Positions 1 through 56,272 of a DNA stretch of 64,000 bases are shown here, piece after piece (the first letter of the stretch is position 1; each line of letters begins with the position of its first letter). The stretch lies in the NCBI RefSeq assembly GCF_000620145.1, contig NZ_JHVM01000015.1, positions 1-64,000 on the forward strand, read 5' to 3'. Made by a program: the position numbers and the translations under genes. The DNA comes from Deefgea rivuli DSM 18356. GTDB taxonomy: Bacteria; Pseudomonadota; Gammaproteobacteria; Burkholderiales; Chitinibacteraceae. The notes under the pieces are model-generated. The model saw only the letters and a program-made list of their open reading frames with translations, was not told where the DNA came from and made no database searches.

Positions 1-2
1 GT

Positions 3-194: not shown

Positions 195-211
195 CGAACA
201 AGACGGTATCT

Positions 212-395: not shown

Positions 396-447
396 CAACC
401 ATAGCAGCACAGCATCAACACCAAATCTGAACATTGCCATTAATTAA

Positions 448-4406: not shown

Positions 4407-4484
4407 GTAGGATGGGTGGAGCTGTATTTTGGCGATACCCATCATTTTGCATTGATGGGTATCGCTTCGCTCCACCCATCCTAC
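4407..4484. repeat. GTAGGATGGGTGGAGC palindromic element, copy 1
   Basis: Perfect 16-bp arms GTAGGATGGGTGGAGC (4407-4422) and its complement (4469-4484) enclose a second perfect stem GCGATACCCAT/ATGGGTATCGC (4432-4442, 4454-4464). A related copy is at 30739. The right edge supplies the TAG stop codon of the GNAT gene at 4481. Confidence 0.9.
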
Positions 4485-4948
4485 ATATTGAGACTTCTTT
4501 CCATAAAAATCTCAGCGACGTCATTATTGTTGTACTTTGGAATTTCATAAAAACCATATTTTTTAAAAACAATTATCGCAGATTCAGATTTTTTCATTGT
4601 GTCGAGTCTGATTTTTTCGAATTTAACTTCTTCGGCGAAACGGATCGCGTGAGCCATTAGCTTTCCGCCAATTCCTTGCCGCTGGTAAGACGGCAATACA
4701 AAATACCTTTTGATTTCACCAATCCGCTTTTCAGGATCTATGGCTCGAATCGCAATACTGCCAATTATCGAATTATGATCTTCCAGTACCCAAAACTCAC
4801 CACCACAATCTTGGTATGTTTCTTTAATATTTCGTATATCTGGCGGCAAATTTAAACGATCAAATGAATAACCGCGAGATTCCTGCATTATTTGTAGAAA
4901 CGCTTCCAATTTATCCTGTAAATCGGGGCGGAATGAAATTAATTTCAT
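4481..4948 (-). CDS. GNAT-family N-acetyltransferase
   Basis: The 155-residue product carries the GNAT core: a beta strand with GSIAIRAI, then YFVLPSYQRQGIGGKLMAHAI, whose QRQGIGGKL is the acetyl-CoA pyrophosphate-binding loop (motif A), followed by FEKIRLDT and a KYGFYEI C-terminal motif. The substrate cannot be told. An AGGA ribosome site precedes the ATG. The gene is AT-rich compared with its creB/creC neighbours and its stop codon comes from the edge of a palindromic repeat, so it was probably inserted here and may have lost a few C-terminal residues. Confidence 0.85.
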   Translation of the reverse strand: MKLISFRPDLQDKLEAFLQIMQESRGYSFDRLNLPPDIRNIKETYQDCGGEFWVLEDHNSIIGSIAIRAIDPEKRIGEIKRYFVLPSYQRQGIGGKLMAHAIRFAEEVKFEKIRLDTMKKSESAIIVFKKYGFYEIPKYNNNDVAEIFMERSLNM

Positions 4949-16299: not shown

Positions 16300-16423
16300 A
16301 TTGGCATCTAAACTTATTGCAAACCTTCGGTAGCTACGCAGCTCAAATGCATTGAAAGCGCTATTCGATTTAGCATAGCGTGGATTGGATGCCGAAAGTC
16401 TATTCCTAAGCGGGGTCGGCGCT

Positions 16424-16650
16424 AATGCCGCGCGGCACTTACTTTTCTTTGCTTCGCCAAAAGAAAAGTAAGCAAAAGAAAGGCGACCCTAGTATCTGCG
16501 TCCGACTTCGTCGGATGCCCTCGCTGCGGACAATCGAGTCGGTTGCGCTCAAAACTCGTTCGGCCTCAAAACCAAAAGCATCGGCCTCGCTCAAACATTG
16601 ATCGCAAAAACCCCGACCCGCTTGTTCCTCGCTCGGCTTGATACAAGGGA
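16424..16650 (+). repeat. Long dispersed repeat, copy B
   Basis: A full 227-bp copy. It begins AATGCCGCGCGGCACTT, then has a perfect 13-bp stem CTTACTTTTCTTT (16438-16450) and AAAGAAAAGTAAG (16460-16472) with a GCTTCGCCA loop, and runs to GATACAAGGGA. It is non-coding; the short frames within it are shared between copies only because the DNA is repeated. Confidence 0.88.
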
Positions 16651-16685
16651 TTTCTAAGCCCCAGTCCGACGACCAAGAAATAATT

Positions 16686-16740
16686 CAGATGTATTGCCAG
16701 CTAAGCTTTGATAATCAATGGCTACGGTTAAATACATCTG
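16686..16740. repeat. 51-bp palindromic repeat (GATGTATT type)
   Basis: Perfect 10-bp arms CAGATGTATT (16686-16695) and AATACATCTG (16731-16740). It lies 35 bp after long repeat copy B. Confidence 0.88.
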
Positions 16741-20583: not shown

Positions 20584-20647
20584 ATACGCGTTCGTAGGTC
20601 GCCCTTCAGGCCGATGATTCGGCTTATCTTATCTACAGCCCGAGTCT

Positions 20648-20731
20648 TCGTCATACCGGCGCAGGCCGGTATCCAGAGCGACGGTAATATAGGCATTGCA
20701 GCTGGATTCCGGCCTTCGCCGGAATGACGAG
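20648..20731. repeat. REP-like double palindrome, copy 2
   Basis: ATACCGGC-GCAG-GCCGGTAT and ATTCCGGC-CTTC-GCCGGAAT with the CGTCAT/ATGACG outer pair. It lies between the DMT permease and the GH3 gene. Confidence 0.88.
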
Positions 20732-20859
20732 TCGATGGGTGGGCGCGTGGCTTATTGTCATACGGCATTGCTAAATTGACATTGCCAGTCAAGCTATATA
20801 CATTTTGCCGACAACTTATTCCCCCATCCTTTCCTGCCTCGCCCTTTTTGGAGTTGCCC

Positions 20860-22551: not shown

Positions 22552-22600
22552 TGGGTATACACATGAAAGGCTTTATTGAAAAGGACTGGAAGGTAATACC
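22552..22600. repeat. 51-bp palindromic repeat, degenerate copy
   Basis: TGGGTATAC at the left and GGTAATACC at the right with poor inner pairing. It stands 90 bp before long repeat copy C, as the clearer copy at 34124 stands before copy E. Confidence 0.5.
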
Positions 22601-22689
22601 TAAGAATAATTGGTGATATTCAGATTTGGTATTGATAAAAACAGCGTATCACTTAAATGAACGCATCAATTTCCTATTCACCATGGTTG

Positions 22690-22917
22690 CGCTAATGCCG
22701 CGCGGCACTGACTTTTCTTGAACGGCCAAGAAAAGTAAGCAAAAGAAGGCCGCCCTAGTATCTGCGTCCGGCTACGCCGGATACCCTCGCTGCGGACAAT
22801 CGAGTCGGTTGCGCTCAAAACTCGTTCGGCCTCAAATACAAAACCGTCGGCCTCGCTCAAACATTGATCGCAAAAACCCCGACCCGCTTGTTCCTCGCTC
22901 GGCTTGATACAAGGGAC
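22690..22917 (+). repeat. Long dispersed repeat, copy C
   Basis: A full copy of about 228 bp. Its hairpin is ACTTTTCTTG (22711-22720) and CAAGAAAAGT (22727-22736) around AACGGC, the loop form shared with copy A. About 50 bp before it are homologous to the sequence before copy E. Confidence 0.88.
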
Positions 22918-22982
22918 TTTAAGCCCTTGCTCAACGATCGCGGCACGGCATCAACCCCAATTTTAATATTGCCAATATCTTA

Positions 22983-23033
22983 TGGGTATTTGTTCGTAGA
23001 ACTTATTAAATATGCGCTGCATATATATACCCA
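22983..23033. repeat. 51-bp palindromic repeat (TGGGTAT type)
   Basis: TGGGTAT at 22983-22989 pairs with ATACCCA ending at 23033. It follows long repeat copy C by 65 bp, through a linker resembling that after copy A. Confidence 0.8.
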
Positions 23034-23071
23034 TCAAGCCAATAGATTGACGGCCTCAACACCCAATCTAA

Positions 23072-23710
23072 TTAATAACCCACCGTAAACCGTTGACGCT
23101 CATGCTGTGGCTGCTCTAATTCGTTAATCATCGCCACTGCGTAGTCTTCGACCGAAATATGGCTCTTGCCTTCAGTGTCGCTTAATAGTTGGTCGCCACC
23201 GAGGCGGAACTCGTTGGTGCGTTGGCCTGGGGCGATCATTGCTGATGGGCTGAGCATCGTCCAATTGAGGCTCGTTTCTTGGCACAGCAAGTTCAATGCT
23301 AGGCGTGCGCCTTCGGCTGAGGCTTTGTATTCAGCGGGGAAGTTCGGCGTATCGATCACTTGCACGCCCGGTGCCACTTCGAGCGAGCCCGCACCGCCGA
23401 CGACCAATAAGCGCGGCGCGGCGGCCGTTTTGGCGGCTTGAATAATGTTGCTAATCCCCGCAACGTAATAGCCCAAAGTATCAGCATTAGCATGACCGCT
23501 AAATGCGCTAATCACCGCATCAAAACCTTGCAATTGCGTTGTCAGTTGACCGAGGTTTTGCACATCCGTCGCGACAGCAAGCAGATTGTCGGCAGGGGCG
23601 AGTTTTTCTGGATGCGCGGCAAATGCGGTTACATGGTGGCCACGGCTGAGTGCTTCAGCGAGCAAAGCAGAACCAATAAAGCCAGTAGCGCCGATCAGTG
23701 CGATTTTCAT
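23072..23710 (-). CDS. NAD(P)-binding Rossmann oxidoreductase (NmrA/YwnB-like)
   Basis: Started at the ATG at 23710, which has AAGGA before it, the product has about 212 residues. It opens with MKIALIGATGFIGSALLAEAL, the GxxGxxG NAD(P) loop of atypical short-chain dehydrogenases, has LLVVGGAGSLEV and a TMLSPSAMIAPGQRT stretch, and ends ERQRFTVGY. Family members are FMN- or NADPH-linked reductases or redox sensors; the substrate is unknown. It is divergent from the LysR gene at 24000, a common regulator/target arrangement. Confidence 0.85.
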   Translation of the reverse strand: MKIALIGATGFIGSALLAEALSRGHHVTAFAAHPEKLAPADNLLAVATDVQNLGQLTTQLQGFDAVISAFSGHANADTLGYYVAGISNIIQAAKTAAAPRLLVVGGAGSLEVAPGVQVIDTPNFPAEYKASAEGARLALNLLCQETSLNWTMLSPSAMIAPGQRTNEFRLGGDQLLSDTEGKSHISVEDYAVAMINELEQPQHERQRFTVGY

Positions 23711-23756
23711 TTTATTTTCCTTGAAGTGATTGAACATAGGTCTCTACAAACCTCAA

Positions 23757-23841
23757 TTCGTCATTCCGGCGAAAGCCGGAATCCAGCTGCAATGGTGGAT
23801 TTACCCTGCACTCTGGATACCGGCCTACGCCGGTATGACGA
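23757..23841. repeat. REP-like double palindrome, copy 3 (reverse orientation)
   Basis: The same two CCGG-centred palindromes in reverse order: ATTCCGGC-GAAA-GCCGGAAT then ATACCGGC-CTAC-GCCGGTAT. It lies between the oxidoreductase and its divergent LysR gene. Confidence 0.88.
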
Positions 23842-23999
23842 TCTAAATGACTGATTTTGAACTTGTGTAGATACTTATGGGTAATTAAATATGAATCGAG
23901 TGACTGCAGTTTGCCTGTGTTTATTGACGCGATAAACAGCAAAATCCATAATTTATTGTTATGGAATTCTTAACAATTGCCCACTAGCGAGTTACGTCT

Positions 24000-24905
24000 A
24001 TGTCTACCCTAGATCAGATTGATTTGAATGCGCTGCGCATTTTTAATGCTGTGGTTGAAGCGAAAAGCTTTACTGCGGCGGCCGAGCGTTTGGGCGTCGC
24101 CAAGGCCAAAGTGAGTTTGCAAATTAGTCGGCTAGAACAGCAGCTAGGCACCGCGCTATTTACGCGCACGACGCGGCAAGTCAACTTGACCGATGCTGGG
24201 CGCACGCTGCATCAGCATTGCCAGCCGCTGCTGATGGGCTTGCACGAAGCGTTAACGCAGCTCGGTAGTGAGCAGGGCGAATTAACGGGGCTGCTGCGAA
24301 TTTCGGCTAGCGTGGCGCATGCCAGCCTATCGGTTGCGCCCGCGCTGGCACAATTTGCGGCGCGGCATCCGCAGCTACGCATTGATTTGCGCACGGGTGA
24401 TCGCGTCACCGATCAAGTAGCCGATGGCATTGATTTATCGTTTAGGGTGGGTTGGCTCAAAGATTCATCGCAGCGCGCGATTCAATTGGGCGAATTTGCG
24501 CAATATATCGTCGCTGCGCCTAGCTATTTGCAGCAGCACGGCGCGCCACAGCAACCGGCCGATTTAAGCGAACATGCGTGGGTTGCGCTGTCGCTGTTGC
24601 CCACGCCGTTAACGTGGAAACTGCGCGATGCCGCTGGGAATACACAAACGGTGCAAATGAAATCACGGCTGCAAGTTGATTCGCCGAATGCCTTGCTGGC
24701 TCTACTGGAATTCGGCGCGGGGCTGTCGGTGATGGATGAAATGAGTTCACAAGCGGCGCTGAGCAGCGGTCAATTAGTGCGGGTGCTCGCGGACTGGTCT
24801 TTGCCTAACGGCGGCATTTACGCGGTTTTCCCGCCAGGGCGACACGTGCCCGCCAAAGTGCGCGCTTTTGTAGATTTTTATCGCGAGTTTATCCGCTTGT
24901 CCTAA
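24000..24905 (+). CDS. LysR-family transcriptional regulator
   Basis: This 301-residue regulator has the LysR helix-turn-helix at about 10-65 (VVEAKSFTAAAERLGVAKAKVSLQISRLEQQL) followed by TALFTRTTRQVNLTDAG and an effector domain with GLLRISASVAHASL and GIDLSFRVG. By family habit it may control the divergent oxidoreductase gene at 23072-23710, but it could also act on the membrane protein gene 63 bp downstream. Confidence 0.9.
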   Translation: MSTLDQIDLNALRIFNAVVEAKSFTAAAERLGVAKAKVSLQISRLEQQLGTALFTRTTRQVNLTDAGRTLHQHCQPLLMGLHEALTQLGSEQGELTGLLRISASVAHASLSVAPALAQFAARHPQLRIDLRTGDRVTDQVADGIDLSFRVGWLKDSSQRAIQLGEFAQYIVAAPSYLQQHGAPQQPADLSEHAWVALSLLPTPLTWKLRDAAGNTQTVQMKSRLQVDSPNALLALLEFGAGLSVMDEMSSQAALSSGQLVRVLADWSLPNGGIYAVFPPGRHVPAKVRAFVDFYREFIRLS

Positions 24906-24968
24906 GCGCTATTTACGCGCAAGCTGCTGCGCTATCGCACCCACCGCTCACTTGATGAAGGAAATATT

Positions 24969-25427
24969 GTGGATCGCAAAGAAATCATCGCACTTATGAA
25001 AAGCCAAAGCACTTGGCGTTTGTATTTGCTGAGTCTGTTTAGCTTTGGCATTTACACGGCAATTTATATCCAACAGCAAAGCCAAAAGCTAGTGCAGATT
25101 CCAAATGCCCAGCCCATTTCAAGCAATTTTGTGAGTAGTTTGATCGCTGCGTATGGGCTGAGTGCGGTGCTGACGGTCGGCTCGTTTTTTGTACCTCCTG
25201 AGCATGCCTTGAGCTTTGCGAGTACTGCATTTGCACTCATTAGTGGTGTGATGGCCTTGCTGTGGGCGTTTCAAATGCGCAGCCGCTTGAATCAACTCTT
25301 GGCGCTCACACCAGAACATGCCGATTGGCTTCACGGTAGCTGGACGTTTTTGTTCACTGCGTTTTACATTAATTACAAAATTAATCAGCTGTATGCTGGG
25401 CAAGAAGATTTAGGTACTGCAAGTTAA
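24969..25427 (+). CDS. Small integral membrane protein (DUF4234-like)
   Basis: The 152-residue product begins at a GTG with AAGGA 7 bp upstream. It has a short cytoplasmic start, a helix with LLSLFSFGIYTAIYIQQQ resembling the opening of DUF4234-type proteins, two central helices (about 52-70 and 80-98) and a last one with FLFTAFYINYKINQLY. No function is known. It follows the LysR gene on the same strand. Confidence 0.72.
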   Translation: MDRKEIIALMKSQSTWRLYLLSLFSFGIYTAIYIQQQSQKLVQIPNAQPISSNFVSSLIAAYGLSAVLTVGSFFVPPEHALSFASTAFALISGVMALLWAFQMRSRLNQLLALTPEHADWLHGSWTFLFTAFYINYKINQLYAGQEDLGTAS

Positions 25428-25472
25428 TGCATCATTAGCCAAAGCGTATTCAAGCCACTTTGGCCGTGTGAA

Positions 25473-26897
25473 TTACAACAGCGGCCCCAGCATCGCAATC
25501 GTGTTATTCCACAAACGGCGACGGATAGTCCATTGCGCGACCATATCGACGGTGACGAGTTCGCTTTGCGTTAGATATTCACTTTGCCGTTGGCGCATTT
25601 CCGCGGTTAAGGCCGCATCAAAAAACAGAATATTGTTTTCAAAATTCAGCTCAAAACTGCGCCTATCCAGATTCGCTGAGCCGATCAACGTCATTTCGCC
25701 ATCCAGCGTCAGCGATTTGGTGTGCAGCACGCCGCCGACAAATTCATAAATCTGCACGCCCGCTGCGAGTAATTCCTCGTAATAACTATGGCTCGCGGCC
25801 TCAACAATCCATGAATCATTGCGCTGCGGAAAAATCACCGTCGTACTCACACCACGTCGCGCCGTGGCGCACAGCGCCGCTTGCATTGCCTCGTCGGGGA
25901 CAAAATACGGTGTCGTAATCACCAATTCGCGCCGCGCGGCGTACATCAGCGTCGTGAACATTTCAGGCATCGCCGTGTACGGCTGCGTCGGCCCAGTGCC
26001 TATCACTTGCGCGACAACACCTTGGCCGATATGCGTATTAGCGATTGGTTGCAAATATTCGGTCAAATCGTCGCCGGTTTGCGCCATCCAATCGCTTTTA
26101 AATAAAAAGTGATTTTGCTGCGCAATCGGCCCGGTAAAGCGCATCACCGCATCGACCCACGGCGCAAACTTGGCTTTGACCAAAAACTCCGCATCGGCGC
26201 AATTCTGGCTACCGCAGTAGGTAATATGCCGGTCGATGACGACGATTTTGCGGTGATTGCGTAAATCAATTCGGCCACTAAACGGGCGCAGCAGCGGATT
26301 ACCAATCGGCAGCGCGACGGCCACTTGCACGCCAGCGTCTTGCATCGCTTTCCAATGTTTAGACGCAATCATCGAACGCGAACCCAAACCATCTGCCATT
26401 GCACGGCAGGCCACACCGCGCGCGGCAGCGCGTTTCAGTGCTTCAACAATTTGCAGCCCGCTGTGATCAGTCAGCCAAATATAAAAGATCAGATGAATAT
26501 GCTCGGTCGCCGCATCCATATCCGCGACCATCGCGGCAATCATGCCGTCCGCTGGCAGCAATTGCCCCGTATTGCCCGCAACGGGCGGAAAGCCATTCAC
26601 TGACTGGCCAAACTGAAACAGCTGACTAAAACGCTCGGGAATTTGCTGCGGCCACGGCGTGGTTTCAGACGATTGCAGGGCTGACTTAGCTTGATTCAAG
26701 CGCGCAACACGGCGGCGACCAATGCTGGTTTCGCCTAATAAAATATACGCCAGCACACCGACAATCGGCAGCAGCGCAATGACGACAATCCACGCGACGC
26801 GCGACGCTGGTTCACGCTGCGGCCGCAAAATAGCCCGCCCAATAAATAGCAGTTGAATCAACACAAACGCAATTGGCAGCAAAGAATACAGCGACAT
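25473..26897 (-). CDS. cls: Cardiolipin synthase (phospholipase D family)
   Basis: Started at the ATG at 26897 (GAGG upstream), the product has about 474 residues. Two N-terminal membrane helices (about 1-20 and 30-55) precede two phospholipase-D units. Each carries an HKD motif: HRKIVVID with SQNCAD near residue 220, and HTKSLTLDGEMTLIGSANLD near residue 400. The enzyme joins two phosphatidylglycerol molecules into cardiolipin at the inner membrane. The longer frame upstream lacks a good start. It is divergent from mgtE. Confidence 0.92.
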   Translation of the reverse strand: MSLYSLLPIAFVLIQLLFIGRAILRPQREPASRVAWIVVIALLPIVGVLAYILLGETSIGRRRVARLNQAKSALQSSETTPWPQQIPERFSQLFQFGQSVNGFPPVAGNTGQLLPADGMIAAMVADMDAATEHIHLIFYIWLTDHSGLQIVEALKRAAARGVACRAMADGLGSRSMIASKHWKAMQDAGVQVAVALPIGNPLLRPFSGRIDLRNHRKIVVIDRHITYCGSQNCADAEFLVKAKFAPWVDAVMRFTGPIAQQNHFLFKSDWMAQTGDDLTEYLQPIANTHIGQGVVAQVIGTGPTQPYTAMPEMFTTLMYAARRELVITTPYFVPDEAMQAALCATARRGVSTTVIFPQRNDSWIVEAASHSYYEELLAAGVQIYEFVGGVLHTKSLTLDGEMTLIGSANLDRRSFELNFENNILFFDAALTAEMRQRQSEYLTQSELVTVDMVAQWTIRRRLWNNTIAMLGPLL

Positions 26898-27152
26898 AAA
26901 ACCTCTTCCACGGTAATGAACGGCACGCCGAGAATACCACGAGCAAATGACGCTGCGAGCGGCGTCCCTCACTGCGAGTGCCAGCCATTATGTACGGCCT
27001 ATTTGCGCGATGCAGCATCCAAGACGCAATTGAGCGCGCGGCACAATTCGCAGCGTCATAAGCCCGTGCTAAACTGCCGCCGCACCGCATTATTTCAACC
27101 AGTGCTATGGCGCGCGTTTCGCGTGCAGATAGTCGCCTGCAGGGCCAAAACC

Positions 27153-28589
27153 ATGACCGTGATGAATCGCAAACCGCAAGAAAGCTTGCAAGACAGCCTG
27201 CAACAAGTCACGCGCTTGCTGGAGCGGCACAAGCTGGTTGAAGGCATGGTGCACAAGCAAGAAGGCCCGAAACACGATCTGGTCGAACAACTCGTTCATC
27301 GGCAAAACCTCGCTGAGCTAGAAAACAAGCTCGCCAATCTACATCCGGCCGACATTGCCTATATTTTGGAAGCGCTGCCGCCAGTTGATCGTTTAACCGT
27401 ATGGGGTTTGGTCGACGCCGATGACGACGGCGAGATTCTGCTTGAAGTGTCGGACGCGGTACGTGAATCCTTGCTGGCCGATATGGCGCCGCATGAAATG
27501 GTCGCCGCCGCAGGGCAACTCGATACCGATGAGCTGGCCGATTTGGTGCCCGATTTACCGTCGGATGTGCAAAGCGCCGTGCTCGGCACGCTGGATGCGG
27601 AAGATCGCGCCGAAGTGCAATCGGCGATGTCGTATACCGACGATCAAGTCGGTGCGCTGATGGATTTTGAGATGGTGACCATCCGCGCCGACGTCAAGCT
27701 TGAAGTCGTACTGCGCTATTTGCGCCGCTTTGACGAGTTGCCGACGCATACGGATAAATTGTTTGTCGTTGACGACAATGACATCCTAAAAGGGGTATTG
27801 CCGCTTAACGTGTTACTGATAAGCGATCCAGAGCAATACGTCGAAGCCGTCATGGCCGATGATGTGGTGGTGTTTCAGCCGTTTGATGACGCGGGCGACG
27901 CCGCGCAAGCATTTGAGCGTTACGACTTAGTTTCTGCGCCTGTCGTCGACTCCAATCACAAAGTCATTGGCCGCATTACCGTCGATCAAATGGTCGACGT
28001 GATTCGTGAAGAATCCGACGCTGAAGTACTATCTTTGGCTGGTTTGAAAGACGAAGACCTGTTTTCCAGCGTCGGGAAAGCGGTCAAAAACCGCTGGCCG
28101 TGGTTGGCGCTGAATATCTGCACCGCGTTTATCGCCAGCCGCGTGATTGGCGCGTTTGAAGACACGATTGCGCACTTGGTCGCACTGGCCGCATTGATGC
28201 CGATTGTGTCAGGCATCGGCGGCAATACCGGCACCCAAACCACGACCTTGATTATTCGCGGTTTAGCGCTCGGGCAAATTCAACCCTCACACACACGGAT
28301 GCTACTGCTTAAAGAACTGGGCATTGCGCTGATTAATGGCCTGATGTGGGGCGCGGTGCTGGGGCTGATGGCGTGGGCGCTGTATGGAAAATGGGATTTG
28401 GGGCTGGTGATGATGGGTGCGATGATGCTCAATATGATCGTCGCGGCGCTGGTGGGCCTGTTCGTGCCGCTCACCATGCAAAAATTCGGCCGCGACCCCG
28501 CGTACGGCTCATCGGTGATGATTACCGCGCTAACCGATAGCTTGGGATTCTTTATTTTTCTGGGCTTGGCGACGATTTTCTTGATGTAA
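27153..28589 (+). CDS. mgtE: Magnesium transporter MgtE
   Basis: Started at the ATG at 27153 (AGGG 8 bp upstream) the protein has about 478 residues. It shows the MgtE layout: an acidic N domain with ADIAYILEALPP and repeated DELADLVPDLP motifs, two CBS domains (about 165-290) and five membrane helices at the C-terminus with the conserved GIGGNTGTQTTTLIIRGLALG pore region. The cytoplasmic domains gate the channel according to internal Mg2+. ATG at 27162 is an alternative start. No Mg riboswitch was seen in the short leader. Confidence 0.92.
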   Translation: MTVMNRKPQESLQDSLQQVTRLLERHKLVEGMVHKQEGPKHDLVEQLVHRQNLAELENKLANLHPADIAYILEALPPVDRLTVWGLVDADDDGEILLEVSDAVRESLLADMAPHEMVAAAGQLDTDELADLVPDLPSDVQSAVLGTLDAEDRAEVQSAMSYTDDQVGALMDFEMVTIRADVKLEVVLRYLRRFDELPTHTDKLFVVDDNDILKGVLPLNVLLISDPEQYVEAVMADDVVVFQPFDDAGDAAQAFERYDLVSAPVVDSNHKVIGRITVDQMVDVIREESDAEVLSLAGLKDEDLFSSVGKAVKNRWPWLALNICTAFIASRVIGAFEDTIAHLVALAALMPIVSGIGGNTGTQTTTLIIRGLALGQIQPSHTRMLLLKELGIALINGLMWGAVLGLMAWALYGKWDLGLVMMGAMMLNMIVAALVGLFVPLTMQKFGRDPAYGSSVMITALTDSLGFFIFLGLATIFLM

Positions 28590-28720
28590 ATTGAGGGTTA
28601 ATGCTGTGCCACGCTGGTTGGTCTGGGGCTTAAAAATCCCGTCTAAGCACACCGAGTGAAGGAGAGAGACGAACAGTTTTATCGTTTGGCTCACGACTGA
28701 TCGAGGGCATCGGGGACCGA

Positions 28721-28790
28721 TGTGCGCCCGGGTCGCCTTTCTTTGCTTACTTTCTTTGGCGAAGCAAAGAAAGTAAGTCCCCGCCGCGGA
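28721..28790 (-). repeat. Long dispersed repeat, fragment D (reverse)
   Basis: Only the hairpin part is kept, in reverse orientation: CTTACTTTCTTT (28746-28757) and AAAGAAAGTAAG (28766-28777) with a GGCGAAGC loop. Homology to the other copies stops after the GGCGACCC stretch. It fills the gap between mgtE and prmC. Confidence 0.78.
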
Positions 28791-28844
28791 TTGCGGCTCT
28801 AAAAAACCGTGCCGCAGGCACTTAAAAAAACTATTAACTAAAAT

Positions 28845-29654
28845 ATGCCCACTTATCGTGAACTGATCCAAACCAGCAGCCTTGAGCGTTTTGATGCTCA
28901 GGTTTTGCTGCTGCACATCGTGCAAAAAAACCGTGCTTGGCTGATTACGCATGACACTGATCTGGCCAGCGACGAACACAGCGCCGCGTTTGCAGCGCTG
29001 GCGGCGCGGCGGCGGATTGGCGAGCCGGTGGCGTATATCCTCGGCAGCCGTGAATTTTATGGCCGCGAGTTTGTGGTGACGCCTGCGGTGCTAATACCGC
29101 GCCCTGATACCGAATTGCTAGTCGAGCTGGCTATCGCACGTGCGCCACAAGCTGGCCGCGTGATCGACTTGGGTACCGGTTCGGGCTGTATTCCGATTAC
29201 GCTGAAACTCGAACGCCCTGATTTAAATGTCGCTGCGCTGGATATTTCGACCGACGCTTTGGCAGTCGCAACGCAAAATGCCGCCGCGCTGAACGCTGAC
29301 GTGCGCTTTTTACCATCCGATTGGCTGGCCGCAGTGGCGGGTGAACAGTTTGAATTGATCGTCAGCAATCCACCGTATATCGAAGCGAACGACGCGCATC
29401 TAACGCAGGGCGACTTGCGCTTTGAGCCGAGCGGCGCGTTGACCGACGGCAGCGATGGCTTGCAGCATTTAGCCACCATCATCACCCAAGCCAAGCAGCA
29501 TCTCGTTTCTGGCGCTTGGCTATTGCTCGAGCACGGCTGGGATCAAGGCGCAGCCTGCCGCGAATTGCTGCAACAAGCGGGTTATGCGGAAGCGCAAACA
29601 TGGCGCGATCTGGGCGATAACGACCGCGTGAGCGGCGGGCAGTGGCGCAGCTAA
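28845..29654 (+). CDS. prmC: Release factor glutamine N5-methyltransferase PrmC
   Basis: The 269-residue protein has an N-terminal helical domain, then YILGSREFYGREFVV and VLIPRPDTELLVE, the SAM-binding VIDLGTGSGCIPITL, and the catalytic NPPY within IVSNPPYIEAND. This is the HemK/PrmC signature. The enzyme methylates the Gln of the GGQ loop in release factors 1 and 2. prfA is not beside it here. Confidence 0.93.
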   Translation: MPTYRELIQTSSLERFDAQVLLLHIVQKNRAWLITHDTDLASDEHSAAFAALAARRRIGEPVAYILGSREFYGREFVVTPAVLIPRPDTELLVELAIARAPQAGRVIDLGTGSGCIPITLKLERPDLNVAALDISTDALAVATQNAAALNADVRFLPSDWLAAVAGEQFELIVSNPPYIEANDAHLTQGDLRFEPSGALTDGSDGLQHLATIITQAKQHLVSGAWLLLEHGWDQGAACRELLQQAGYAEAQTWRDLGDNDRVSGGQWRS

Positions 29655-29750
29655 AATTGAACAACCGCTAGTCATGGATTATGGCATTGTCACTTGTGCT
29701 TGAAACTGGCCGAAGTATGGTTAGGGTTTCAATAGGCAAGGAGCACCATC

Positions 29751-30272
29751 ATGTGGCAAGCCCATTTAACATTGATATGCAGTGTCGGTTTAGTCGCTTG
29801 TGCAGGGCCGAAAAACATGCCGCCGCAGGCAAAAGCCGAGTTGCAATCGGCTGCGGGGCAAAAAATCAACGGCGAGCTGCTGTTTTATCAACAAGACAGC
29901 GGGCCGGTCTTACTTAGGATCAAAGTGGCAGGCCTAAAGCCCAATAGTGAACACGGCTTTCATATCCACATGACGGGCGATTGCAGCAAAGCCGATTTTA
30001 GCAGCGCGGGTGGGCATTTTAATCCACAACAACACGCGCACGGCGCGCAAGCAGCTGAACATCATGCGGGCGACATCCCCAATCTCAACGCAAACGCCGA
30101 TGGCTTGGCCGAAACACAATTCACACTCGCGCAACTCAGCCTGCTGCCCGGCACAAACAATATCATCGGTAAAGCGGTGATTATTCATGCCAACCCTGAT
30201 GATTACCACAGCCAACCGGCGGGCAACGCTGGCGCCCGAATCGCTTGCGCCGTGATTCAAGCCACGCCGTAG
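29751..30272 (+). CDS. sodC: Cu,Zn superoxide dismutase, lipoprotein
   Basis: The 173-residue protein has a lipoprotein signal ending LVAC. It carries the Cu,Zn SOD metal ligands: GFHIH, the bridging His in SAGGHFNP, HAHG and HHAGD for zinc, and the last copper His in VIIHANPDDY. The terminal GNAGARIACAVI supplies the disulfide Cys. It removes superoxide in the periplasm, here probably tethered to a membrane. A GGAG ribosome site precedes the ATG. Confidence 0.92.
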   Translation: MWQAHLTLICSVGLVACAGPKNMPPQAKAELQSAAGQKINGELLFYQQDSGPVLLRIKVAGLKPNSEHGFHIHMTGDCSKADFSSAGGHFNPQQHAHGAQAAEHHAGDIPNLNANADGLAETQFTLAQLSLLPGTNNIIGKAVIIHANPDDYHSQPAGNAGARIACAVIQATP

Positions 30273-30353
30273 CGCCACCCCAACGGGCTTGCCGCGTTTG
30301 GAGCATCGGCTTACAATACCCGACTAAATCTATCAACCTTTGTGAGCATCATC

Positions 30354-30671
30354 ATGAGCATTCAAGACACAATTCGCCAGCAAGTGACCGAAAATCCAGT
30401 GGTTTTATACATGAAAGGCACGCCGTCTTTCCCACAATGCGGCTTTTCTTCGGGCGCAGTGCAAATGCTGAAAAACTGTGGCGTGAATTTTGCTGCGGTG
30501 AATGTATTGGCCGACCAAGACATCCGCCAAGGCATCAAAGAATACGCCAACTGGCCAACGATTCCACAGCTCTACATCAAGGGCGAATTTGTTGGCGGTT
30601 CGGACATTATGAAAGAGCTATTCGCCAGCGGCGAATTGCAAACGATGTTGGCTGAATTTAAAGCTGAGTAA
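30354..30671 (+). CDS. grxD: Monothiol glutaredoxin Grx4
   Basis: The product from the ATG at 30354 is 105 residues with the CGFS active site (FPQCGFSSGAV), the KGTPSFPQ motif and WPTIPQLYIKGEFVGGSDI. These are the marks of Grx4/GrxD proteins, which carry Fe-S clusters with glutathione and pass them to target proteins. GTG at 30342 would add four residues. A terminator follows the stop. Confidence 0.93.
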   Translation: MSIQDTIRQQVTENPVVLYMKGTPSFPQCGFSSGAVQMLKNCGVNFAAVNVLADQDIRQGIKEYANWPTIPQLYIKGEFVGGSDIMKELFASGELQTMLAEFKAE

Positions 30672-30686
30672 TTCAGCAAGCCAGCG

Positions 30687-30715
30687 ATGCCTTCCAATTG
30701 GAAGGCATTTTTTTT
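30687..30715 (+). terminator. Rho-independent terminator of grxD
   Basis: ATGCCTTCC-AATT-GGAAGGCAT followed by a run of T. Confidence 0.88.
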
Positions 30716-30738
30716 GTCATTTTATTAAATGCGAATGT

Positions 30739-30817
30739 GTAGGATGGGTGGAGCGAAGCGATACCCATTGATATAACGTTGATGGGTATCGCCCAAATAC
30801 GGCTCAACCCACCTTAC
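30739..30817. repeat. GTAGGATGGGTGGAGC palindromic element, copy 3
   Basis: Opens GTAGGATGGGTGGAGCG like the copy at 4407, has the inner pair GCGATACCCAT/GATGGGTATCGC, and closes with a diverged arm ending CCACCTTAC. Confidence 0.85.
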
Positions 30818-30843
30818 ACGCAAATACCCTCAAAAAAAATATC

Positions 30844-30896
30844 GATGTATATGCATGTAGAGCATATATAAAAATCCCTACATCAATATACCCATC
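30844..30896. repeat. 51-bp palindromic repeat (hybrid arms)
   Basis: GATGTATAT at the left and ATATACCCATC at the right, with a perfect inner TGTAG (30856-30860)/CTACA (30878-30882). Confidence 0.78.
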
Positions 30897-30970
30897 AACC
30901 CCACATTAGTAATCCTGAGCAACACCATTTTTTGATAGCATGCAGGGATCAATTTCCCTGAGACTTTAAA

Positions 30971-31645
30971 ATGACTTCTGCTCTACTCCCTTGCGTCACC
31001 ATTGAAACCGCTCCGAATCCAACTGCAACCGTCATTTGGCTGCATGGCTTGGGCGCAGATGGCAATGATTTTGCAGGCATCGTGCCTGAGCTGGGTTTGC
31101 CGGCCGATTTGGCCGTGCGCTTTATTTTTCCGCATGCGCCGACCATGCCGATTACTTGCAATAACGGCTATGTGATGCGCGCTTGGTATGACATCGTGCA
31201 TTTCGACCAAATCAGCCGCCAAGCCGATATCGCTGGCGTGCAGCAATCAGTGCAATCCATTCGCGATTTGATTGCTGCTGAGAATGCCAAAGGCATACCT
31301 AGCCACCGTATCGTGCTAGCGGGCTTTTCCCAAGGCGGTGCGATTGCCTATACCGCTGGTTTAACTCATCCAGAAGCGCTGGCTGGGATTGTCGCTTTAT
31401 CGACTTACCTGCCTGCTGAATCGCTGCTCACAGCTGACACCATCGCCGCCAATCAAACCACGCCGGTACTGGCTGCACATGGTAGCCAAGATCCTGTCGT
31501 CGGCGTTGTGCTCGGTGAAAAAGCCAAAGATTTCGTCGCGAATTTAGGCGTGAAGGTCGATTGGCATACTTATCCAATGCAACATTCGGTGTGCTTGCCC
31601 GAGATTCAATTGATTGGGAAATTTATCACCGCCAACTTACGCTAA
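30971..31645 (+). CDS. Alpha/beta-hydrolase carboxylesterase (YpfH/EstB type)
   Basis: The 224-residue enzyme opens with IWLHGLGADGNDF (oxyanion region) and has the nucleophile elbow GFSQGG at about residue 117, an Asp in HGSQDPVV and the catalytic His in YPMQHSVCLPEI. This fits the phospholipase/carboxylesterase family (Abhydrolase_2). Members cleave short acyl esters or thioesters; the natural substrate is unknown. It is cytoplasmic, since no signal peptide is seen. Confidence 0.88.
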   Translation: MTSALLPCVTIETAPNPTATVIWLHGLGADGNDFAGIVPELGLPADLAVRFIFPHAPTMPITCNNGYVMRAWYDIVHFDQISRQADIAGVQQSVQSIRDLIAAENAKGIPSHRIVLAGFSQGGAIAYTAGLTHPEALAGIVALSTYLPAESLLTADTIAANQTTPVLAAHGSQDPVVGVVLGEKAKDFVANLGVKVDWHTYPMQHSVCLPEIQLIGKFITANLR

Positions 31646-31652
31646 ATGCAGC

Positions 31653-31687
31653 AATTAGCCGTTAATATCAGACATTAACGGCTAATT
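31653..31687. terminator. Bidirectional hairpin between convergent genes
   Basis: Perfect 14-bp stem AATTAGCCGTTAAT (31653-31666) and ATTAACGGCTAATT (31674-31687). It includes the stop codon of the minus-strand gene ending at 31682. T-runs are weak, so its terminator role is inferred from position. Confidence 0.65.
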
Positions 31688-32011
31688 AACCAGTTCCAGT
31701 GCATCCCTCAAAGCAGACTGTGGCTTGCTGTCAATCTGGCTTACTTTCACATTGCAGCGAAAATGATGCGCGCTGGCCACCAGCACCGAATCCATCACCT
31801 TAATCTGCATTGGAAAATATTCATTCTTCTTATGCGAAACATCGTGCAGCTCTAGAAACAAGCGCAATTCAAGGCCGGCTTTGAGTGAATTGAGTGAGAT
31901 CAGCTCAAGCTGTGTTTCAGACGCCTGCGATACTTTCACCAGCAAAGGTTCTGTGCCCTCTAGCAGAACCGCAGCCCGCCAGCTCACTCGTTTAAGCTTG
32001 TTTTCACTCAT
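31682..32011 (-). CDS. Small protein of unknown function, PilZ-like fold possible
   Basis: The 109-residue product is rich in alternating hydrophobic strands (AVLLEGTEPLLVKVSQASETQLELISL), opens with KRVSWRAAV, and has HFRCNVKVSQID near the end. The pattern of strands with an early Arg resembles PilZ barrels, but the full RxxxR and D/NxSxxG motifs are not present, so c-di-GMP binding is not claimed. It lies downstream of the hydrolase gene on the same strand, with 39 bp between them. Confidence 0.62.
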   Translation of the reverse strand: MSENKLKRVSWRAAVLLEGTEPLLVKVSQASETQLELISLNSLKAGLELRLFLELHDVSHKKNEYFPMQIKVMDSVLVASAHHFRCNVKVSQIDSKPQSALRDALELVN

Positions 32012-32050
32012 TTTTCACGTCCAATAAAAATCAATCAAAACCCACGGCTT

Positions 32051-32836
32051 TTAGGGACGACTCAATACAAAATCAGCGATACGCTCGCCCAATTGCAGGC
32101 GATACTCGCGCCGCGCAAAGGTGTGATCGGCGTCCGGCCACGCTTCAAACGTCGCTTGCGGCAAGCAAGCGGCGACTTGTTCGCCGATTTCTACCGGAAC
32201 GGCTTGATCGAGCTGACCATGCACGACCAGCGTCGGAATATTCAACGTCGCCAAGCCCGAAAACGGTGCGAGTTGAGCGAGCTCTTGCCGGAATGTTTGG
32301 TTAATTTCTAAAGCCAAAAAATCCACACAATCAGTACGATCAGTGTGGTGCGCGGCAGAATTAGCGCTCGCCACCGACTCAACCAATTGCGCTAAATTAG
32401 CCGCTGGTGCGAGCAAAGTCATCGAGCGCATCGCTGCACTATCGACCAAGGCGGTTTGCAACGCGACCAAGCCGCCCATGCTAAAGCCGAGCACATGCCG
32501 CGCGTATTGTGGGTAATTTGCAGCCAGATGCGCTAATAAATGCTGAGTTTGTGCCACTTGGCTGGCCACAGAAATGTTGGCAAATTCGCCATCACTTTCG
32601 CCGCACCCCAAGAAATCAAAGCGAAACACCGCAATCCCCCGCGCTGCCAGCACGCGTGCCAGCGTTACGAAAAAATACGTGTATTCGATCCGATTGCCAG
32701 TAAAACCATGCAGCATCAACACAGCATGCTCGGCAGCAGCAGGCAAATGCGCGCTGCCGATGAGCTGCTGGCCGCCAAAATCCAGCGCCAGCGGTGTGAT
32801 TGGCGTCGCTACTGACGCAGAATGTCCGCTTAGCAT
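32051..32836 (-). CDS. Alpha/beta hydrolase (BAAT/Hydrolase_4-like)
   Basis: The 261-residue protein has [14 protein letters not shown] (oxyanion), [11 protein letters not shown], the nucleophile elbow LGFSMGG near residue 122, an Asp in HGQLDQAVP and a His in DADHTFAR. This is a complete Ser-Asp-His triad of a serine hydrolase acting on esters or similar. The start codon overlaps the end of hemL by 7 bp, so the two genes are translated together. The link to heme synthesis is only positional. Confidence 0.87.
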
Positions 32837-34104
32837 TGCGCTAACGCGATTTTAGCCGCCGCCAAAGTCGCCGCAATATCAGCGTCGGTATGCGCAGCCG
32901 ACACAAAGCCCGCTTCAAATGCCGATGGCGCGAGATAAATGCCTTGTTCCAGCATCGCGTGGAAAAACGCGTTGAAACGGGTGCGATCAGATTGCATTAC
33001 ATCGGCGAATGACGTTGGCACAACTTCGGCGAAATACACGCCAAACATACCGCCAACAGACTGTGCACAAAGTCCGTGATCTGCGCCGATTTCATTTAAT
33101 CCAGAGACGAATTTCGCCGTTTGTGCGGCTAAATTCTCAAAGAAGTTAGGTTTACTAATTTCGGCTAACGTCGCCAAACCCGCAGCAACGGCAACTGGAT
33201 TTCCCGATAAAGTACCCGCTTGATAAACAGGGCCCAGCGGCGCTAAAAACGCCATAATATCGGCGCGGCCACCAAATGCCGCCAGCGGCATGCCGCCACC
33301 AACGACTTTGCCCAAGCAAGTCAGATCAGGGGTAATGCCGTGCAGGCCTTGCGTGCAGTGCAATCCAACGCGAAACCCCGTCATTACTTCATCGTAAATC
33401 AGCACCGCGCCGTGTTGCGTGGTGAGATTACGCATCGCGGCAACAAACTGCTCACTTGGCTGCACCATATTCATATTGCCAGCAATCGGTTCGACGATGA
33501 TCGCTGCAATTTCGCCGCCGTTCGCTGCAAATAAGCTTTCCAACGCAGCCACATCGTTGTACGGCAACACAATCGTATCGGCCGCCACCGCAGCCGGAAC
33601 ACCAGCGGAAGAGGGATTACCAAAGGTCAGCAGGCCAGAACCTGCTTTCACCAGCAAACTATCGGCGTGGCCGTGGTAGCAGCCTTCGAATTTGACCAAT
33701 TTATCGCGGCCAGTAAAGCCGCGCGCGAGGCGAATCGCGCTCATTGTCGCTTCGGTACCGCTGGAAACGAGGCGAACTTGCTCCAGTGACGGCAGCATTT
33801 GGCACAGCAAATCAGCCAGCTCAACTTCGCCCTCAGTCGGCGCGCCAAAGCTCATGCCGTTTTTGGCGGTATTCACCACCGCGTCGATGACCGCTGGGTG
33901 TGCGTGGCCAAGAATCAACGGGCCCCAAGAACCGACATAATCGATATATTGCTTATCGTCCGCATCCCAAACAAAAGCGCCCGCGCCTTTTTTAAAAAAG
34001 CGCGGCGTACCGCCCACCGAGCCAAAAGCTCGTACTGGCGAATTCACGCCACCAGGGATGTGTTTTTTGGCAGATTCAAAAAGTTGTTCGTTACGGCTGG
34101 TCAT
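32830..34104 (-). CDS. hemL: Glutamate-1-semialdehyde 2,1-aminomutase
   Basis: This 424-residue class-III aminotransferase has the HemL features: [34 protein letters not shown] and the PLP lysine K266 in [13 protein letters not shown]. It makes 5-aminolevulinate from glutamate-1-semialdehyde, the C5 route of heme synthesis. An AAAGGT ribosome site precedes the ATG. The length fits the family, and all landmarks are intact. Confidence 0.95.
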
Positions 34105-34123
34105 AGTGATTACCTTTGTTTAA

Positions 34124-34172
34124 TGGGTATATGGATGGAGGCATTTTTGATTAATGGCTGCATTCGTATACC
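34124..34172. repeat. 51-bp palindromic repeat upstream of long repeat E
   Basis: TGGGTATAT (34124-34132) pairs imperfectly with GTATACC (34166-34172), with an inner GCATT/AATGGC. It lies just upstream of hemL and 80 bp before long repeat copy E. Confidence 0.75.
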
Positions 34173-34251
34173 TACTTAATATTTGAAATTTAATTTTGAT
34201 GAAAAGTGCAGCGTTTAACTTAAAACATCAACATTCTAATCGCCATGGTCG

Positions 34252-34478
34252 CGCTCATGCCGCGCGGCACTTACTTTCTTTGCTTCGCCAAAGAAAGTAA
34301 GCAAAGAAAGGCGACCCTAGTATCTGCGTCCGGCTGCGCCGGATCCCCTCGCTGCGGACAATCGGGTCGGTTGCGCTCAAAACTCGTTCGGCCTCAAATA
34401 CAAAAGCATCGGCCTCGCTCAAACATTGATCGCAAAAACCCCGCCCCGCTTGTTCCTCGCTCGGCGCGATACAAGGGA
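34252..34478 (+). repeat. Long dispersed repeat, copy E
   Basis: A full 227-bp copy. Its hairpin is CTTACTTTCTTT (34270-34281) and AAAGAAAGTAAG (34290-34301) with the GCTTCGCC loop shared with copies B and D. Confidence 0.88.
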
Positions 34479-34512
34479 TCTCGCGCAGATCAACGAGGTT
34501 TGTTTTTAAGTC

Positions 34513-34563
34513 GATGTATTGCCAGCTAAGCATTGTAAATAAAAGGCTATGATCAAATACATC
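34513..34563. repeat. 51-bp palindromic repeat (GATGTATT type)
   Basis: Perfect GATGTATT (34513-34520) and AATACATC (34556-34563), 34 bp after long repeat copy E. Confidence 0.88.
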
Positions 34564-40046: not shown

Positions 40047-40928
40047 ATGAATCCAACTCCACCCACCGTGCTAGTTTTTGCAGCTAATGATCCTTCTGGT
40101 GGCGCGGGGTTAATGGCCGACGTGTTGACGCTGGCCTCATTGGGTTGCCACGCCCTGCCGATTGTCACCGCAATGACGGTGCAAGACAGCGCAGGCGTAC
40201 AAGAATTTCATGCGATTGATTCAGAAATCGTCGACGAGCAAGCGCGGTTTATTTTAGAAGACATCAAAATCGATGCGATCAAAGTTGGCATGGTCGGCAG
40301 CGTTGAGAATCTGGCTGTTATTGCCGAAATCGCTTCGGACTATCCCGATATTCCGTTGATTTTAGAGCCGGTGTTTAGTATGGGGCGTGGCGAAGAACTT
40401 TCGAACGAAGAGCTGATTAGCGCCATGCGCGAGCTACTGCTACCGCATACCTTGATCGTGACGCCAAATAATACCGAGGCGCGTTTACTCGGCTCAGACG
40501 ATCCCGATGAGCAGGAAGATATGCCACTCGATGCCGCCGCACAACGGATTTTGGAATGCGGCTGCGAATACGTATTGATTGCCGGCACACATGAAAAAAC
40601 GCCGAAAGTCGTTAATACGCTGTACAGCCGCCTAGGCCGCGTGCGCACTGATCAGTGGGAACGCCTGCCAGGCAGTTACCACGGCGCTGGTGCGACGTTG
40701 GCGTCGGCGATTGCCGGTGCATTAGCCAATGGTGCGGATATTTCTGAGGCGGTGAAAGACGCGCAAGACTTCACGTGGCAAGCGCTGTCTGCCGCGTTCC
40801 GTCCGGGTATGGGGCAGTTCATTCCCGACCGTATGTTCTGGGCGCGTAGCTCTGAAGAAGAAATCGCCGCCGAAATTGCTGAAGCAGCGGCTAACGCCGA
40901 ACTAGAACCACCTAAGTCGATTCAATAA
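40047..40928 (+). CDS. thiD: Hydroxymethylpyrimidine/phosphomethylpyrimidine kinase
   Basis: The 293-residue kinase has the ThiD landmarks: [16 protein letters not shown] near the start, [41 protein letters not shown] and [21 protein letters not shown], which holds the catalytic region. It phosphorylates HMP and HMP-P for thiamine synthesis. The C-terminal tail of about 25 residues is acidic and extra to the core. It is divergent from rubA. No TPP riboswitch was recognised in the short leader. Confidence 0.93.
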
Positions 40929-40934
40929 TTTTCT

Positions 40935-41017
40935 TCGTCATACCGGCGTAGGCCGGTATCCAGAGCAACGGTAAAATCACCATTGCAGCTAGATTCCGGC
41001 CTTCGTCGGAATGACGA
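40935..41017. repeat. REP-like double palindrome, copy 4
   Basis: Same double palindrome; the second stem carries one change (CTTCGTCGG) that breaks a pair. Confidence 0.86.
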
Positions 41018-41046
41018 ATTGATAAGTTTTGCTGTGTGGATACTTT

Positions 41047-41654: not shown

Positions 41655-41737
41655 AGCGCAATGCTGTGGGGGTCGCCGCACAACCCCCTCTCTTTATAAG
41701 CCTAGCGATCTAAACAAGCCTGAAATGAATTCACTCT

Positions 41738-41842
41738 TCGTCATACCGGCGTAGGCCGGTATCCAGAGCGATGGCAACCACTAACATTGCAGCTAGATTC
41801 CGGCCTTACCTTCAGGTACGCAGAGCGCCGCCGGAATGACGA
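41738..41842. repeat. REP-like double palindrome, copy 5 (interrupted)
   Basis: The first palindrome is perfect. The second is broken by about 22 bp (TACCTTCAGGTACGCAGAGC region) in its loop, which itself holds ACCTTCAGGT. Confidence 0.82.
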
Positions 41843-41896
41843 ATTGATTCGTTTTGCTATTTTTGTATTGATGCTCATATCCAAAAAGGAAACATC

Positions 41897-55979: not shown

Positions 55980-56026
55980 AGTAAAAAGATTGGGGAGAAG
56001 TCTAGCAGAGAACAGCAAAGGCGTTG

Positions 56027-56211
56027 TCCACGAAAAACACGAAAGGCACGAAAAAACCAAACGAAGAATACAAATTTTGATTATTTTCTCGCGCTTAGAA
56101 ACTGATGGAATCAACAAATCGTACCTTTCTGCAAATTTTCTGTGCTGAACTTGATTCGAACTTCCTAAGTTCAATTTGTGTATTTTTCGTGCCTTTCATG
56201 TTTTTCGTGGA
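56027..56211. repeat. Element with 29-bp inverted ends (CACGAAAG family), copy 2
   Basis: TCCACGAAAAACACGAAAGG... at 56027-56055 is repeated inverted at 56183-56211 with one mismatch in 29. The AT-rich interior of 127 bp is unrelated to that of the element at 19481. It lies between parE and comM. Confidence 0.8.
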
Positions 56212-56221
56212 CTATGGTTTT

Positions 56222-56272
56222 GATGTATTTCCATGTAGCCCATATTAAATAATAGCTACAAGGCAATACATC
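56222..56272. repeat. 51-bp palindromic repeat (GATGTATT type), best copy
   Basis: Perfect outer GATGTATT (56222-56229)/AATACATC (56265-56272) and perfect inner TGTAGC (56234-56239)/GCTACA (56255-56260), around CCATATTAAATAATA. It touches the end of comM. Confidence 0.92.

Follow-up and report, generated by a model that had tools for sequence, protein, structure and literature searches.

The closest known relatives, in behavior, of the repeats described here are miniature inverted-repeat transposable elements (MITEs) and the insertion sequences (ISs) that target repetitive extragenic palindromes (REPs). The present analysis concerns a stretch of 64,000 nucleotides from Deefgea rivuli DSM 18356 (contig NZ_JHVM01000015.1, positions 1 to 64,000; hereafter the window), in which a long repeat bounded by palindromes occurs at 22552-23033 (unit 1) and 34124-34563 (unit 2). 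This long repeat is very probably the cargo of a family of non-autonomous transposons that insert at a fixed offset from intergenic palindromes.

As described in the available text of PMC10969869, prokaryotic MITEs are shorter than 500 bp, lie between genes, carry terminal inverted repeats and flanking direct repeats, and give transcripts predicted to fold; the elements reported here are of the same kind. That text notes a preference for AT-rich and intergenic DNA and the clustering of different elements, and the portion seen gives no offset rule. Among REP-targeting ISs, type 1 breaks the REP at one internal position and type 2 lies near or adjacent to REPs (available part of Tobes and Pareja 2006, PMC1525189). 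REPs and their hairpin-forming doublets (REPINs) are defined, in the accessible part of PMC3733652, as palindromes of 20-40 bp with a GTAG or CGTC tag at one end, associated with REP-associated tyrosine transposases (RAYTs; Y1_Tnp).

Association of the long repeat with palindromes

The window belongs to a 3.71-Mb Deefgea genome in 23 contigs. The long repeat and both pairs of palindromes were found where the original prediction, made from the sequence of the window, had placed them; the conserved core of the palindrome in this genome is 47 bp long and reads GGTAT or TGTAT ... ATACC or ATACA. A DNA search with the 482-bp unit returned 54 matching pieces in the window genome, and anchoring on a conserved hairpin in the fetched loci gave at least 47 copies of the long repeat, a lower bound with 40 of 99 candidates scored. 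The longest stop-free run in two window copies is 71-96 codons, both strands considered.

A palindrome stands at the expected place, on at least one side, in 32 of the 44 copies examined (three of the 47 were dropped for long N runs or short flanks), as against 11.3% of 3000 random positions drawn from the same loci, coding DNA included. The repeat and the palindrome are therefore not chance neighbors, as the original prediction had argued. It had also held that a real unit would be incompatible with the two occurring independently, without fixed order or spacing, and here the outcome is divided: most palindromes lack a repeat, yet the 32 copies have theirs in place. The long repeat is also present in genera without the palindrome.

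Terminal-repeat elements and their fixed offset

Reading of the flanks of the copies revealed terminal inverted repeats of about 25 bp (GGCGATGTTCAGATTTGGTGTTGAT) that start with GG. The terminal repeat TTCAGATTTGGTGTTGAT has 74 sites at three mismatches or fewer and its reversed pattern has none. Across Deefgea these ends form inward pairs 74-384 bp apart (45 retained elements) around different cores: the long repeat, whose middle domain comes in two versions; a related core of opposite sense; two G/C-rich arms (TCCCCCTTGACGGGGG); or, in a 74-bp form, almost no core. In a second genus (genomes G042, G043 and G020) the same ends enclose either a GTAGGGTGGG hairpin, as in 14/14 elements of G042, or a TCCCC-type core.

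The elements are flanked by an 8-bp target-site duplication. In Deefgea, mean flank identity peaks at length 8 (0.584), the eight remaining lengths between 4 and 12 giving 0.30-0.40; the 8-bp flanks agree at seven or more positions in 14 of 49 rows, compared with a mean of 0.44 and a maximum of 3 in 200 shuffles. Such agreement is seen in 3/11 elements with the long-repeat core taken alone, and in 19 of 26 rows of the second genus, where the identity of the duplication is 0.88. Short, devoid of a transposase gene, bounded by terminal inverted repeats and flanked by a target-site duplication, these elements have the features of MITEs. Classification as a non-autonomous element of the IS200/IS605 type was rejected, since terminal inverted repeats and target duplication are both present and IS200/IS605-type elements have neither. 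Exact scans for the terminal repeat in viral contigs gave 0 matches.

The distance to the palindrome is nearly constant. A palindrome lies within 40 bp of 34 of the 45 Deefgea elements, compared with 2.3% per side at random positions, coding DNA included; four of the 49 rows had been dropped before this count as wrong or overlapping pairs (among them a unit 1 row with a wrong right end), and unit 1 was read separately. The 38 edge-to-edge distances comprise 25 of 11 bp, 8 of 10 bp and five between 5 and 9 bp. For elements with the long-repeat core, 9/11 have a palindrome and the 11 distances are 11 bp (seven), 10 bp (one), 8 bp (two) and 5 bp (one). The second genus, whose loci were picked by inward end pairs and not by palindromes, contributed 26 rows at 25 loci (two rows have one right end in common); every palindrome there is one-sided, at 11 bp in 23 rows, 12 bp in two and 9 bp in one. 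Eleven further pairs near apparently lone ends, one of which repeats a second-genus locus, gave eight at 11 bp, two at 5 bp and one without a palindrome. From the palindrome side, with the loci pooled, the start of 55 of the 72 ends within reach puts the element edge at 11 bp. This single-base peak recurs in two genera; the arrangement of palindrome, 3 bp, 8-bp duplication and element therefore reflects a rule of insertion and is not a product of common intergenic space. The fixed order of palindrome and repeat follows from insertion at this offset.

Elements with a palindrome on both sides have unequal 8-bp flanks in four of five cases (L004 twice, L071 and unit 1), the remaining one being the 74-bp element L221, with 7/8. 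The copies with unequal flanks are best read as recombination hybrids of two insertions; recombination between copies is likewise the explanation of the unequal direct repeats of ISRm22 in the available text of PMC1525189.

Two further observations concern the spacing. The offset rule is broken at locus L290 (G003 C1:921300-925300, element at 309), where the duplication of 8 bp is perfect (CTGTATTT) and the scan shows no palindrome. The word GTAGG occurs 27 times no more than 36 bp from the edge of a palindrome, in 17 cases starting at offset 6-8 (e.g. L012, L014, L045 and from 16737 onward); these words perhaps belong to a further class of repeat that keeps a constant spacing of its own.

Palindromes as host loci

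Sites were scanned with the palindrome ends GGTATNNG and CNNATACC at a spacing of exactly 47 bp, allowing one mismatch. The window genome has 257 sites against 5 for a reversed-pattern control, and six Deefgea congeners have 159-208 against 6-10. Fifteen of 43 family genomes, from three genera, are rich in the palindrome (159-282 sites; control 0-10), and 28, from eight genera, are at background level (2-12 sites; control 0-15). Five or more terminal-repeat sites occur in 10/15 palindrome-rich and 0/28 palindrome-poor genomes, a restriction that fits dependence of the elements on the palindrome.

Within five stretches totaling 347 kb there are 60 palindromes (reversed control 0), of which 46 are intergenic. 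Among these, 19/46 lie between convergent and 3/46 between divergent genes; the corresponding background gaps are 47/216 and 47/216. In 44 window-genome palindromes picked by their ends only, the variable positions 9-12 are paired in 87 of 176 cases (shuffle mean 61.8; 0/2000). A G·U strand test gave 34 versus 22, which decides for no strand. At 47 bp, with GGTAT or TGTAT at both ends, the palindrome falls outside the definition of REPs and REPINs in both length and tag. Integron attC sites have RYYYAAC / GTTRRRY core sites at their ends and were rejected as candidates, the palindrome ends reading GGTAT ... ATACC.

The palindromes are host loci, vertically inherited and independent of the transposon, because a palindrome stands 21-23 bp before the hemL start codon in all seven Deefgea genomes and four of these have no piece of the repeat or of a related core within the 4.3-kb locus. 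The repeat is present at hemL in the other three: in the window genome and G004, with differing middle domains, and in G006, as a related core in reversed orientation. In G006 the gap beside the GH3 gene holds two palindromes, one on each side of a different core that runs in the other orientation; palindromes and core are both missing from G004. At five further gaps a 47-bp site occupies the same place in two or three of four congeners, 13 sites in total, with strongly diverged arms; 10 of the 13 pass the palindrome scan, the failing three being G004 at gap C and G001 at gaps E and G. The gap at 28590-28842 is filled in the window genome and in G006; in G004, G001 and G003 the two genes lie only 4-15 bp apart. 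No further clean empty-site case was found among other elements in stretches common to the congeners. Together with the terminal repeats and 8-bp duplications, the hemL sites without a repeat and the absence of the 28590-28842 element from three of four congeners bear out the suggestion that the repeat is a non-autonomous mobile element.

Features of the window

The features discussed above and below are located as follows.

22554-22600: left palindrome of unit 1, 47 bp (22552-22602 in the original prediction); G006 has a palindrome at the same place
22604-22611: 8 bp abutting the unit 1 element on the left (GAATAATT), a 3/8 match to the right-hand 8 bp (AATATCTT)
22612-22973, minus strand: unit 1 element of the terminal-repeat type (MITE), whose core is the long repeat; minus is probably the strand that folds
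22690-22917, minus strand: putative structured core of unit 1, with a pseudoknotted hairpin (~22709-22752), closing helix and swappable middle domain
22985-23031: right palindrome of unit 1, 47 bp, 10-11 bp from the element (right end degenerate)
34126-34172: hemL palindrome, 47 bp, 21 bp upstream of the hemL start
34176-34504, minus strand: long-repeat copy of the second form (unit 2), boundaries approximate
34515-34561, plus strand: right palindrome of unit 2, of a second, asymmetric type (TGTATTGCCAGCTAAGC..), about 35 bp past GATACAAGGGA
16419-16650, minus strand: long-repeat copy of the second form
16690-16736, plus strand: asymmetric-type palindrome past the 16419 copy
212-438, minus strand: long-repeat copy into which an IS110-family element (window 1-211) has inserted; the copy ends at 438 with an exact right terminal repeat
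439-446: candidate 8-bp target duplication (ATTAATTA) abutting the right terminal repeat of the 212 copy; its left partner is outside view, the contig beginning inside the IS
450-496: 47-bp palindrome, 11 bp from the 212-438 element
28590-28842, plus strand: eroded element with a related core in the opposite orientation, filling a gap; no palindrome, exact ends unrecognizable

In unit 1, the left terminal repeat (22612-22636) has two mismatches and the right one is degenerate, with seven; a gap of 11 bp separates the element from its left palindrome. From the 3/8 match of its flanks, the 8 bp on the left would be hybrid or eroded. The closing helix pairs CCCTAGTATC (22753-22762) with GATACAAGGG (22906-22915).

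The IS at window positions 1-211 recurs in the genome. This stretch and the starts of contigs C1, C4, C6 and C7 (L198-L201) are five contig ends that represent halves of one IS, inserted at the same point in the long-repeat hairpin, between GCGGCAC and CTTTCTTG. An IS110-family element seems to target the long repeat, because the half on C1 matches Transposase_20 of the IS116/IS110/IS902 family (4.3e-11).

Conserved fold of the core

The core alignment (A2) contains 23 copies from nine genomes and five genera (g1, g2, g6, g8, g9), namely 18 of the 23 copies of a first set and five from the window genome. It outlines a hairpin, its loop paired to sequence downstream, together with a closing helix, two more helices and a swappable middle domain. 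The resulting named structure of 46 pairs is paired in 89.5% of cells. Compensatory changes are present: both sides have changed in 24 of the 46 pairs, compared with 14.6 in shuffles (0/500) and 3-9 in slid controls, and the covariation score is 0.235 versus 0.088. The number of further pair types, 33 versus 32.9, is not above shuffles. The pseudoknot helix is weakest, with 76.1% of cells paired, partly from misaligned rows. Left out of A2 were L178, L181, L183 and L185 (Deefgea G001, G002, G003 and G005) and one of two L197 copies. The first four differ in the first hairpin and pseudoknot part; by eye, their closing helix, the hairpin after it and both inner helices are retained. The pseudoknot is thus not general in Deefgea, as these copies from four other Deefgea genomes lack the first hairpin.

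Strand was judged from mismatches. The aligned strand has 3 G·T and 29 A·C, equivalent to 29 G·U and 3 A·C when the minus strand is read; a single column pair supplies 16 of the G·U, and without it the count is 13 versus 3. The aligned rows are related, so this ratio is not a probability, and the P1 columns 74-80 were excluded for their misaligned rows. In 22 of 23 copies the minus strand is also the more stably folded of the two, and within-genome alignments lean the same way, 15 versus 6. The core is most likely a conserved multi-helix fold with a pseudoknot, acting as an RNA read off the minus strand; covariation and strand bias thus favor the earlier proposal of a structured RNA unit. No Rfam family reached its gathering score in the window, and for six loci at E <= 1 there were only three sub-threshold matches, to microRNAs and long non-coding RNAs. 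Comparison of the core with phages gave no match and with plasmids gave weak partial matches to three records. Genera that lack both these ends and the palindromes also have the core.

A second form of the repeat

Unit 2 (34124-34563) and the 16424 copy (16419-16738) represent a second form, which has no right terminal repeat and in which an asymmetric-type palindrome follows GATACAAGGGA at a nearly fixed distance of about 35 bp. At hemL the left palindrome is the ancestral site; the right one was observed solely alongside the repeat. Because the right palindrome is absent from the four empty hemL sites, repeat and right palindrome of this form may have traveled as one or been brought together by recombination.

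Proposed mechanism and alternatives

We propose that a transposase acting in trans, perhaps of the DDE type, would insert the elements beside a dispersed, inherited 47-bp intergenic palindrome. The 8-bp duplication begins 3 bp outside the palindrome, which places the element edge 11 bp away on either side; the palindrome would act as an address and is left intact. It may be recognized as a cruciform or through a bound host protein, and the core would be transcribed. More tentatively, the arrangement could be a safe-haven system. Host palindromes at gene ends in three genera would be kept by compensatory change and marked by a host protein or a cruciform, at which the transposase docks to insert 11 bp away, and one of the cargoes would be a family-wide mobile structured RNA of a new class. 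Yeast Ty elements, which dock near tRNA genes, would be a parallel. With hundreds of addresses per genome readable from sequence, a direct search for the docking factor and the transposase is feasible. If confirmed, a mini-transposon that carries a new structured RNA would show how RNA elements can become dispersed through a genome. The element is in addition a natural marker for ordering insertions among Deefgea strains.

Several results weigh against targeted insertion of a mobile RNA-bearing element. By scan, 11 of 45 Deefgea elements have no palindrome, including two of the 11 that contain the long repeat; of the further 11 pairs, two stand at 5 bp and one, its duplication perfect, lacks a palindrome. 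The random controls were not limited to intergenic DNA. The second genus carries other cores, and its distances thus test the ends and not the long-repeat core. The 8-bp flanks of unit 1 agree at three positions of eight. In unit 2 the left end has seven mismatches, near chance, and lies 3 bp from the palindrome, not 11; the second form is not explained by the terminal-repeat model and needs another explanation. The restriction of the ends to palindrome-rich genera is confounded with kinship. No transposase gene was found between two such ends in 20 neighborhoods of apparently lone ends, two of them clipped by contig ends, and a 1576-bp end pair in G003 was rejected as an autonomous copy, being an IS481-like element nested in a related core. 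The evidence for RNA consists of covariation and strand bias. At L218 (G003 C1:1573300-1577300), an IS481-like element lies inside a core of the same family, and the 8-bp flanks of the outer ends differ, by eye, at one position.

The original prediction had combined palindromes and repeat into one composite mobile unit of 440-480 bp, with the palindromes as element ends that move along. The recurrent order speaks for it, as does the second form, whose right palindrome keeps its spacing and is gone with the repeat at four of seven hemL sites. For the terminal-repeat form, however, the unit is already contradicted: the duplication sits between element and palindrome, the palindrome is usually one-sided, as in all 26 second-genus rows, palindromes outnumber repeats (257 versus at least 47), and the left hemL palindrome exists alone in four genomes. 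We regard the composite unit as improbable overall; for the second form only, it may be half right, repeat and right palindrome being absent together from the empty sites. That palindromes and repeats merely co-occupy AT-rich intergenic space, by chance or through selection against genic insertion and without targeting, would suit the mostly intergenic position of the palindromes and their preference for convergent gene ends, but the single-base peak at 11 bp in two genera refutes it unless the scans are wrong, and its probability is close to nil.

Targeted insertion also has to be set against spread of the palindromes by RAYTs, as REP- or REPIN-type sequences, the repeat being carried along. 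In their high copy number and extragenic position close to the 3' ends of genes, the palindromes do resemble REPs, and Y1_Tnp genes occur in five of the seven Deefgea genomes. However, RAYT genes are not needed for the palindromes, because two palindrome-rich genomes, G003 and G004 (173 and 159 sites), have no Y1_Tnp match at E <= 0.001; moreover, the same-place palindromes of congeners at several gaps have diverged arms and are not recent copies. This makes the RAYT explanation very unlikely. Another question is whether a single-stranded DNA intermediate of transposition, instead of an RNA, is what constrains the core. Compensatory changes fit any folded single strand, and wobble pairs occur in DNA too. 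Against this, a terminal-repeat element with an 8-bp duplication is expected to move double-stranded, the core is conserved also in genera without these ends, and G·U is favored on the minus strand with or without the dominant column pair. A DNA constraint is accordingly unlikely, although it retains appreciable weight.

Other repeats in the window

Repeats of the form CGTCATACCGGCG..GCCGGTAT occur in both orientations at 2787-2892, 20638-20743, 23748-23875, 40925-41030 and 41735-41858, and are perhaps a candidate CGTC-tagged REP class. Inverted arms of 44 bp (..GTTGTCCACGAAAAACACGAAAGGCACGAAAAA) lie 127 bp apart at 56012-56055 and 56183-56226; by eye, they are present in G004 too and were not seen at that place in G001 and G003. 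Repeats of GTAGGATGGGTGGAGCGAAGCGATACCCATC stand in opposite orientation at 4407-4489 and 30734-30817.

Comparison with known systems

In the literature covered, mostly papers accessible without subscription, no fixed 11-bp offset from a palindrome appeared in titles or abstract openings. A text search likewise found no paper containing the sequence letters of the core and none on Deefgea with repeats and palindromes. To our knowledge, bacterial transposons with many natural targets at one identical offset are rare.

The beta-proteobacterial repeat element (BRE) resembles the core in being a repeat found in many Betaproteobacteria, tied to small RNAs and suspected of mobility, and differs in its length of about 90 bp, its average GC of 69% in Bordetella and its often tandem arrangement (available text of PMC3110155). 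Compared by description only, it is a possible relative of the core.

Tn7 inserts at a fixed distance from a recognized site, attTn7, with a 5-bp duplication. The present system differs in having hundreds of palindromic sites per genome, an 8-bp duplication and no transposon genes; attTn7 is named as a single specific site in the accessible text of PMC10969869. The MITEs described there do share the overall form of our elements, which are set apart by the exact 11-bp offset from a dispersed palindrome, by several unrelated cores between the same ends and by a core that covaries across genera. The REP-targeting ISs, in the part of PMC1525189 that is available, likewise use dispersed extragenic palindromes as targets and can have unequal direct repeats through recombination. 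In contrast to their type 1, the Deefgea palindrome is left intact and insertion takes place 11 bp outside it, by a non-autonomous element that is flanked by an 8-bp duplication.

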